DNA of 64,000 nucleotides from the NCBI GenBank assembly GCA_947165425.1, contig CAMVAJ010000002.1, positions 1 to 64,000 on the forward strand, in the 5' to 3' direction. Below the pieces are notes generated by a model that had not been told where the DNA came from, searched no databases, and saw nothing but the letters and a program-made list of their open reading frames with translations. The DNA comes from an uncultured Clostridia bacterium (GTDB lineage Bacteria > Bacillota > Clostridia > Christensenellales > Aristaeellaceae). The translations under genes were made by a program, and so were the position numbers. Shown here piece by piece: positions 41,019-43,559 of the stretch; position 1 is the stretch's first letter, and each line of letters opens with the position of its first letter.

Positions 41019-41105
41019 CTTCCATTATGCAGGACTTTTCGGGAAGCCGGCGAAATGATCATGTAACGGCCGGCCGGCGGAGGCGTGGCGGGGGAGGATG
41101 ACGGC

Positions 41106-43559
41106 ATGATCTTTTTTCAGCAGTTTTTTCTGGACCGGGAGAAGGACATCGCGGTGGATCTGTATATGGAGGAGGAGCGGCTCTTCTACGTCATCCGGAC
41201 GCCCAACCACCGCACGGGCAACCTGATCTCCAATCTGGCCCGGCTCTGCGCGCTGGAGACCTCGCTGGACGAGCGGGGGCTGCGGGTGATCCGGGGCGAG
41301 ATCCCCAGCTATTTCGACGGGGACAACCGGCGGATGTACATCCTCCGCCTGGGGAACACGAAGATCGCCAACATCTACCCGGACGGGCGGGTGGAGCTGA
41401 AGGCGTCGATCCCCGCCATCTCCAAGACCCTCATGAGCCAGACCAAGGACTACCGGCTGGGGGTCGAGAAGACCATCGTCAAGACCTACATCCGCAGCGA
41501 CTGCAAATTCCGGACGGATCTCCACACCCACATGAACGGCAACCTGCCGCCGGACATCCTGATCGCCCTCGGCATGATCCACCAGATCCGCTACCCCTAC
41601 TACTACATCAAAAAGCTGGGGCTCCTGTGCACGCTGGACCAGCTGGCGGGGCTGGAGGAGCGCAGGGCGCAGGCGCGGGCGGCGCTGGGGGAGACGAGCC
41701 TGACCGGCAAGTATCTCGAGCGCCGCATCGACGATCTCACCTTCATCAACTTCGCCGACCTGATCCTGGGCAATCCGGAGAACGCCGAGACCAACATCGA
41801 GCGGATCCGCAACTCGCTGACCATCCCCAAGGACGGGCAGGCGGTGTTCGCCGACCTGGAGAAGGTCTACCTGTACCGCTATGTGTTCACCAAGGGCGTG
41901 CCCTCGGAGAAGCCCTTCGCGGGCATCCATATCGACGGGATCCCGGACCGGGACGTGCGGGCTTACGCGGAGCGCATGCGCCGCGACCGGGAGGACGACC
42001 GCTACCGCCGCAACACCCTCTACCAGGATCTGCTGCTGTGGATCGCCCGGGAGTACCAGCGGCACGGCATCGTCTACGCCGAGATCTCCGACACGTCGCT
42101 CCTCAAGCCGGAGGAGGCGCCGGGCAAGCTGCGGGAGATCCACGAGATCATGCCGGCGGTCACGCGGGAGACGGGGGTGGTGCTGCGGTTCCTGGCGGGC
42201 ATCCGCCGGGTGCCCCTCACCATCGTGCGGGACCGGCCCACGCCGGACAACTACCTCTCCGAGAGCCTGCGCTGCCTGTGGGCCTTCGCGGGGGACCCCT
42301 ATGTGGCGGGCAGCGACATCATCGGCGAGGAGATCAACGATATCCTGGAGCTAAAAGATGTGATCCGGGAGCTGGTCGCGGTGGCGGGCGCGTTCCCGGG
42401 CTTCGTGATCCGCATCCACGCGGGCGAGAACGACAGCCTCCGGGACAATGTGGGCAACAGCCTCCGCTGCGTCCGGGAGTCCCTGGCGCCGGGGCAGGAG
42501 ATGCCGCGCCTGCGCATCGGCCACGGCCTGTATACCAGCGACCTGAAGAGCGCCAAGGGCCAGAAGCTGCTGGAGGAGCTGCGCCGCAGCGGGGCGGTGC
42601 TGGAGTTCCAGATCACCTCCAACGTGCGGCTCAACAACCTCAGCACCCTGGCGCGGCACCCCCTGCGGCAGTACCTGCGCGCGGGCATCCGCTGCGTGCA
42701 GGGGACCGACGGCGGCGCGCTCTACGGGACCAACTCCATCGACGAGGAGCTGAGCCTGGAGAAGCTCCTGGACCTGAACCATGAGGAGCTGTGCGGCATG
42801 CGCGGCGCGGAGTCGGAGGTGCTCTCGGACAGCATGCGGGTGTTCCGCCGCCGGGAGGAGGCCTTCCGGCAGGCCTGCGCCGGGGTCGATCTCCAGCGGT
42901 ACTACGAGGGGAAGCTGGAGGAGGCCCGGGAGCGCCTGGGCGCGGTGCGCTGGACGGCGCAGGCGGGGCAGCGCACCGAGGAGGCGCTGGCCGACCGCCT
43001 GCGGCCGCTGCCGAAGGACCGCTTCCCGCTGGTGGTGTGCGGCGGCAGCTTCAACAGCAGCGGACGCCGCGCCCGCGTGAGCGCGGAGGACCGGGCGCTG
43101 ATCGACCGGCTGCTGGAGCGGGCGGATCCGGCCAGGGTCTACTTTGTGGTGGGGCACACGCTGACCGGCCAGGAGGGGTATCTGGCGGAGAAAGCCGCGG
43201 GCACCTTCGACGTGTTCGCGATCGTGCCGGGCCAGATGACGGAGGCCGCGCTGCGGCGGCTACGGCGGACGAACGTGCGCCTGGTGCCGTCCATCGAGAG
43301 CTTCGGCATGGGCCTGTACAAGAGCTTTGCCTACGAGATTTTCAAGCGGCTGCCCTCAGCGCTGCTGGCCTTCGACGGCAACTCCGCCGCGCTGAACCTG
43401 ATCCAGGAGGCGCGCAACGGCCGGCAGAAGTGCCGGATCTTCTTCAACCCCCGCTCCCGGGGGCTGGCGGCGAAGGCGCGGCTCCTGGAGGGGTACATGA
43501 CGCCCCTGCGGGACGTGGAGGACGTGCTCCGCGCGGTGCCGGAGGCGCCGCCGGTGTGA
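41106..43559 (+). CDS. Adenosine-deaminase-like metallohydrolase fused to C-terminal SLOG/DprA-like Rossmannoid domain
   Basis: DLHTHMNGNLP (HxH), RIHAGEND, RIGHGL, ITSNVRLNN, GTDGG; C-term PLVVCGGSFNSSGR...VYFVVGHTLTGQEGYLAEKA...VFAIVPG...SALLAFDGNSAALNLIQEARNG...RIFFNP. Confidence 0.8.
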   Translation: MIFFQQFFLDREKDIAVDLYMEEERLFYVIRTPNHRTGNLISNLARLCALETSLDERGLRVIRGEIPSYFDGDNRRMYILRLGNTKIANIYPDGRVELKASIPAISKTLMSQTKDYRLGVEKTIVKTYIRSDCKFRTDLHTHMNGNLPPDILIALGMIHQIRYPYYYIKKLGLLCTLDQLAGLEERRAQARAALGETSLTGKYLERRIDDLTFINFADLILGNPENAETNIERIRNSLTIPKDGQAVFADLEKVYLYRYVFTKGVPSEKPFAGIHIDGIPDRDVRAYAERMRRDREDDRYRRNTLYQDLLLWIAREYQRHGIVYAEISDTSLLKPEEAPGKLREIHEIMPAVTRETGVVLRFLAGIRRVPLTIVRDRPTPDNYLSESLRCLWAFAGDPYVAGSDIIGEEINDILELKDVIRELVAVAGAFPGFVIRIHAGENDSLRDNVGNSLRCVRESLAPGQEMPRLRIGHGLYTSDLKSAKGQKLLEELRRSGAVLEFQITSNVRLNNLSTLARHPLRQYLRAGIRCVQGTDGGALYGTNSIDEELSLEKLLDLNHEELCGMRGAESEVLSDSMRVFRRREEAFRQACAGVDLQRYYEGKLEEARERLGAVRWTAQAGQRTEEALADRLRPLPKDRFPLVVCGGSFNSSGRRARVSAEDRALIDRLLERADPARVYFVVGHTLTGQEGYLAEKAAGTFDVFAIVPGQMTEAALRRLRRTNVRLVPSIESFGMGLYKSFAYEIFKRLPSALLAFDGNSAALNLIQEARNGRQKCRIFFNPRSRGLAAKARLLEGYMTPLRDVEDVLRAVPEAPPV

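Follow-up and report, generated by a model that had tools for sequence, protein, structure and literature searches.

Gene and Domain Organization

The window considered here is a stretch of 64,000 nucleotides of DNA from an uncultured Clostridia bacterium, in which a single open reading frame at positions 41106–43559 encodes a protein of 817 amino acids (plus stop codon) that joins an N-terminal domain, an adenosine deaminase (ADA) domain and a SLOG domain, and which we refer to as ADA-SLOG; the gene is supported by the reading frame itself, by its homologues and by the low dN/dS described below, and it and all of its features lie on the + strand. A strong Shine-Dalgarno sequence, gggggagg (41090–41097), can be read 8 nt 5′ of the ATG at 41106, which is therefore a better start than the in-frame GTG at 41085, and we found no sigma-70-type promoter for the gene. 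The first-pass annotation of this DNA had described one 817-residue frame with adenosine-deaminase motifs behind an N-terminal extension resembling nothing recognizable, and our analysis agrees on each count: all of the motifs are present, A_deaminase (PF00962, E = 2e-14) is the sole Pfam match to the protein, and the Pfam search gave no known family for residues 1–130 (41106–41495), a beta-rich domain of ~130 residues delimited by the structural model and by conservation, with a conserved KTLMSQTK at residues 107–114. The whole chain was modeled with AlphaFold2 from the family alignment at a pLDDT of 83, and a Foldseek comparison of this model with the PDB returned adenosine deaminases, with Cad1 lower in the list.

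The Deaminase Domain and Its Active Site

The adenosine-deaminase-type domain spans about residues 133–610 (41502–42935) and matches ADA and Cad1 structures in Foldseek. Its metal-binding residues are H140 and H142 of HTHMN (HTH 140–142; 41523–41537), H438 of HAGE (within HAGEND, 438–443; 42417–42428, invariant in 69/69 sequences) and D535 of TDG (534–536; 42705–42713), with E441 of HAGE and H473 of GHG (472–474; 42519–42527) as the catalytic residues, and an SN pair at 505–506 completing the motif set. H140, H142, H438, E441, H473 and D535 are all invariant in the family alignment of 69 sequences, and these residues, the fold and the above-cut-off Pfam match place the protein in the A_deaminase superfamily. 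Alignment to solved ADAs places N144 at the position of Asp19 of mouse ADA and G536 at that of Asp296. The latter replacement, which turns the usual TDD into TDG, had been noticed in the first-pass annotation and is invariant; the former, a second lost substrate-binding aspartate, had been missed. The two positions hold N/S and G in the main family, and A and G in a second, distant clade described below. ADA-SLOG is not a canonical adenosine deaminase, as it scores 39.9 bits against NCBIfam equivalog cut-offs of 216–459 and has both aspartates replaced. Judging from its conserved residues, the active site looks catalytically complete and re-specified.

A precedent for the double replacement is TaqCad1, which has G and N at the Asp19 and Asp296 positions, converts ATP to ITP once its sensor holds cA4 or cA6, and barely deaminates adenosine (PMC12669630). 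This shared loss is our main ground, by analogy, for proposing that ADA-SLOG may act on a phosphorylated substrate. Restoring both aspartates in TaqCad1 still does not yield a good adenosine deaminase (PMC12669630), and thus the two losses alone do not fix the substrate.

The C-Terminal SLOG Domain

Modeled alone, the last ~180 residues fold into an alpha/beta Rossmannoid domain of their own (pLDDT 92, pTM 0.90), of which about residues 636–800 (43011–43505) constitute the SLOG (LSDAT-like) domain. The best PDB matches to this model in Foldseek are TRPM8, DprA, YgdH, ShosA, TRPM2 and LOG, all of them SLOG proteins, which supports the SLOG identity anticipated in the first-pass annotation; these matches reach a probability of 1.00, yet none has an E-value below 0.001. 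Against the PDB, only the fold comparison was informative, profile searching with the C-terminal sequence having turned up nothing useful there. The Pfam SLOG families did not match the window protein itself; LSDAT_prok matched the C-terminus of one full-length second-clade protein (from genome G285) at 8.2e-4, which is under Pfam's curated cut-off. Three motifs stand out in the alignment: VVCGGSF (residues 643–649; 43032–43052), with invariant S648 and F649; FVVGHTLTGQE (680–690; 43143–43175), with invariant G683 and E690, which reads VTGGTNHGVEKE in the second clade; and LLAFDGNSAALNLIQEA (753–769; 43362–43412), with invariant G758, N764 and Q767. The second clade also carries a TGGTNxGV motif in this domain.

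SLOG domains include enzymes that act on nucleotides as well as sensors with no catalytic function (PMC9503650), and that of ThsA binds 3′cADPR (PMC11204291). We rejected an assignment as a LOG phosphoribohydrolase, as PGGxGTxxE is absent and the third motif contains DGNSAALN instead, with its invariant N764. Because the LOG catalytic motif is missing, sensing is likelier than catalysis, and we infer a ligand-binding, allosteric role for this domain as the likelier one.

Distribution and Conservation of the Family

Scanning 85,462 species genomes, we identified 68 homologous loci, which belong to Clostridia and Erysipelotrichales. Most encode full-length proteins with 47–74% identity to the window protein and all three parts, and the domain fusion recognized in the first-pass annotation proves to be fixed in the family. 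The exceptions include L054 and L064, which have lost ends at contig ends, and L052, which gives 652 residues from its first usable start. With the window genome counted each time, the prevalence of the gene is 37/150 genomes in the window's family, 8/290 in its class and 2/399 in its phylum; the gene is also found in 16/250 Lachnospiraceae genomes. In six close pairs, dN/dS is 0.04–0.14 over the whole gene and low in each domain, and the three-part layout is under purifying selection.

The second clade comprises proteins from three genomes (G285, G1140 and G1128), two of them 783 residues long and one in a frame of 1006 residues. An HH alignment with the main family covers profile columns 7–812 (E = 6.6e-56, 25% identity), and the three-part layout therefore predates both clades. 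We note that the G1140 homologue (L100:7060–10080, – strand) has roughly 200 extra residues after the SLOG domain, which belong to no identified family. ADA-SLOG is a conserved and seemingly undescribed protein of gut Clostridia: we found no earlier description in Pfam, NCBIfam, PADLOC or the literature searched, a scope that does not extend to the 2015 founding paper on SLOG (NAR).

Genomic Neighborhoods and Gene Transfer

The window gene is flanked upstream by a divergent EamA transporter gene and downstream by convergent genes for PmbA/TldD-type peptidases. In six relatives (G408, G333, G388, G292, G295 and G337) the pmbA–tldD pair occurs with no adjoining ADA-SLOG, and the position in the window is therefore lineage-specific; this empty-site comparison did not establish an exact insertion scar. 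Across the family, a neighbor family is held in common by 25/28 locus pairs at ≥85% protein identity, as against 11/936 pairs at 65–75%, which indicates that neighbors are inherited locally and that no partner is kept. The Pfam assignments show ordinary housekeeping genes in changing surroundings, and further Lachnospiraceae loci (11 read out of twelve) are equally varied. In the tree, Oribacterium (Lachnospiraceae) clusters with Sharpea and an Erysipelotrichaceae MAG in one 100/100 group, a placement indicating that the gene has passed between families. The ADA-SLOG gene is patchy in its distribution, crosses families and stands alone.

The first-pass annotation had read the protein as a single-chain sensor/effector with a possible part in genetic conflict, while conceding housekeeping neighbors and the lack of an RdrA-like ATPase nearby. 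This concession extends to the homologous loci, beside which no RdrA-like or other fixed partner is conserved. PADLOC gave few matches among 110 neighbors, most of them to generic models, with no enrichment of known defense genes, and the neighbors listed include no CRISPR genes. Searches of phages and of viral contigs (IMG/VR) found no relatives of ADA-SLOG, plasmids yielded no match to the window protein, and the full-length fold had no match among viral structures at E ≤ 0.001. The earlier reading is partly borne out, in that the fusion is real, conserved and has the build of a ligand-gated deaminase; a conflict role found no backing in the surroundings of the gene or in these searches.

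Nucleotide-metabolism genes adjoin ADA-SLOG in only a few lineages, which does not fit a gene always sitting in purine-salvage operons, the outcome that the first-pass annotation had set against its own reading; by rough estimate, such neighbors are no more frequent than chance would give. They include genes reading as pyrKDE at L135 and a permease, NCS2-type as named from sequence, at L136/L137. At five further loci (L046, L047, L048, L058 and L060; Oribacterium, JC7), a gene for a YfbR-like 5′-deoxynucleotidase lies 42–126 bp upstream on the same strand, with ParA/ParB-like genes 4–6 kb further upstream.

Other Deaminase and TIR Genes in Carrier Genomes

We tested 23 genomes for other deaminase genes. 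Four of the 16 carriers of ADA-SLOG also have an ADA of ~330 residues, and the other 12, which include the window genome, have no further A_deaminase gene, so that a salvage role is conceivable for ADA-SLOG; none of the seven non-carriers has any A_deaminase gene. TIR enzymes are able to make signals of the ADP-ribose (ADPR) type. Among 150 genomes of the window's family, TIR_2 is present in 20/37 carriers as against 24/113 non-carriers (p = 3e-4, ignoring phylogeny and genome size), whereas the corresponding counts for HsdR (13/37 against 26/113, p = 0.19) do not differ clearly. The window genome itself has no TIR_2.

Comparison with Known Systems

Among the closest known systems is Cad1/CAAD, a type III CRISPR effector (CARF_ADA in PADLOC), in which a Rossmannoid ligand sensor and an ADA share one chain and both nucleoside-binding aspartates are likewise replaced. 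The CARF_ADA model matches the ADA part of the window protein weakly (3.2e-4) and that of the second clade at 5.5e-17. However, Cad1 carries its CARF domain at the N-terminus, where ADA-SLOG has its extra beta domain, and ADA-SLOG carries SLOG at the C-terminus. The residues at the two aspartate positions also differ, being N/S and G in the main family as against G and N in TaqCad1. Without the N-terminal CARF domain, and with no CRISPR genes among the listed neighbors, ADA-SLOG is not a member of the Cad1 group.

RdrB of RADAR, an ATP/dATP deaminase, is similarly large, with an ADA core, extra segments and the same catalytic set (PMC9994260), but it has not been described as carrying a SLOG domain and works with RdrA; the window protein has no RdrB profile match at E ≤ 1 and no conserved rdrA neighbor, and we therefore rejected membership of RADAR. 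ThsA of Thoeris (SIR2-SLOG) resembles ADA-SLOG in having a C-terminal SLOG domain on an effector enzyme, one that is plausibly a sensor of an ADPR-type messenger. Its effector is SIR2 rather than ADA, however, and ADA-SLOG has no ThsB neighbor, no SIR2, no match to the ThsA model and no recurrent TIR neighbor, which excludes it from Thoeris. KomA of Kongming is also a deaminase, one that makes a signal in defense (PMC12948488), but it works with KomB and KomC, and ADA-SLOG has no such partner. Outside defense, canonical adenosine deaminase (COG1816) shares the core fold and the catalytic residues, whereas ADA-SLOG lacks Asp19 and Asp296, is more than twice as long and has two extra domains. 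The LSDAT_prok and TRPM N-terminal SLOG domains share the fold of its C-terminus, to which the second clade adds the TGGTNxGV motif and the LSDAT_prok match under the cut-off, but that of TRPM is fused to a channel and that of ADA-SLOG to an ADA.

Proposed Function

The reading that we favor, tentatively and at somewhat short of an even chance, is that ADA-SLOG is a single-chain, ligand-gated enzyme that deaminates a phosphorylated adenine nucleotide, Cad1-like with a SLOG sensor. In such a mechanism, a small ligand derived from a nucleotide, and resembling ADP-ribose if the analogy with TRPM and ThsA holds, would bind to the SLOG domain, and this binding would reshape the active site of the ADA, probably within an oligomer. 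Once opened, the enzyme would convert a phosphorylated adenine nucleotide, most likely ATP or dATP, to its inosine form, and this deamination would slow growth or starve an invader. ADA-SLOG would act with no dedicated partner gene, its ligand being made elsewhere. The ligand-gated reading draws on the invariant catalytic set, the replacement of both aspartates in both clades and the layout conserved over them, as well as on a SLOG fold devoid of the LOG motif and on a gene that is patchy, transferred and free of context, with the higher frequency of TIR_2 in carriers as a lead. Against it stand the lack of defense-gene enrichment nearby, the window genome without TIR_2, the outcome of aspartate restoration in TaqCad1 and the 12 carriers with no other A_deaminase gene. 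The role served might be defense, stress or purine homeostasis, with defense suggested by analogy only. We regard as unlikely the stronger proposal, in which ADA-SLOG alone would make up an antiviral or stress system, a CRISPR-independent, self-contained counterpart of Cad1. There, its SLOG domain would sense an ADPR-type messenger, possibly supplied by TIR proteins encoded elsewhere in the same genome, and would thereby activate the ATP/dATP deaminase.

The main competitor is a role in purine homeostasis, doubtful in our judgment but with a real chance of being correct, in which the ADA would serve salvage or clean-up by deaminating adenosine, AMP or some modified adenine nucleotide, with SLOG as an allosteric metabolite sensor and no link to phage. 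The housekeeping neighbors and the carriers with no second A_deaminase gene fit such a role, as do the YfbR, NCS2-type permease and pyrKDE genes beside some loci, but these last are few and by the same estimate unremarkable, four carriers have a normal ADA as well, and all seven non-carriers manage with none. Asp19 and Asp296 are also lost, and the patchy, transferred distribution is unlike that of a core salvage gene. If, instead, the SLOG domain were itself a hydrolase, which some SLOG domains are (PMC9503650) and which the LOG structures among the fold matches might suggest, ADA-SLOG would be a two-step enzyme that deaminates and splits base from sugar, degrading or making a nucleotide signal; we consider this quite improbable given the missing PGGxGTxxE, the DGNSAALN sequence with N764, and a nearest Pfam family that is LSDAT rather than LOG. 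Least probable is a catalytically dead ADA serving as a binding or scaffold protein. Changes at Asp296 severely impair mouse ADA, according to the account of Sideraki 1996 given in PMC12669630, but neither the metal ligands nor the catalytic Glu and His vary in either clade, and Cad1 is active though it also lacks this aspartate.

Two antiviral systems, RADAR and Cad1, deaminate ATP to ITP, each under its own switch. The ADA-SLOG family couples an enzyme of this kind, in one polypeptide, to a nucleotide sensor of a third kind. Were the ligand-gated mechanism correct, it would link ADPR-type messengers to purine deamination.

Observations at Individual Loci

A few loci merit separate mention. 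At L044 (2553–3998, – strand), a convergent ATPase gene beside the homologue matches the PADLOC candidate PDC-S27 at 3.5e-42, at this one locus. At L096:3012–5134, near the second-clade gene of G285, we noted NUDIX and PP2C genes together with one for a ~196-residue "YHGT" protein with no Pfam match. The plasmid search with the second clade gave two weak ADA-domain matches, of which that on a Novosphingobium plasmid is a plain ADA of 400 residues. On this Novosphingobium humi plasmid, NZ_CP117418.1 (region L099:3778–9612), the gene for this ADA (CARF_ADA, 2e-32) is divergent from a SIR2 gene (ThsA-like, 1.8e-29), and the pair adjoins capP-like and Pycsar-cyclase-like genes; the region is a compact defense island, perhaps Kongming-like.
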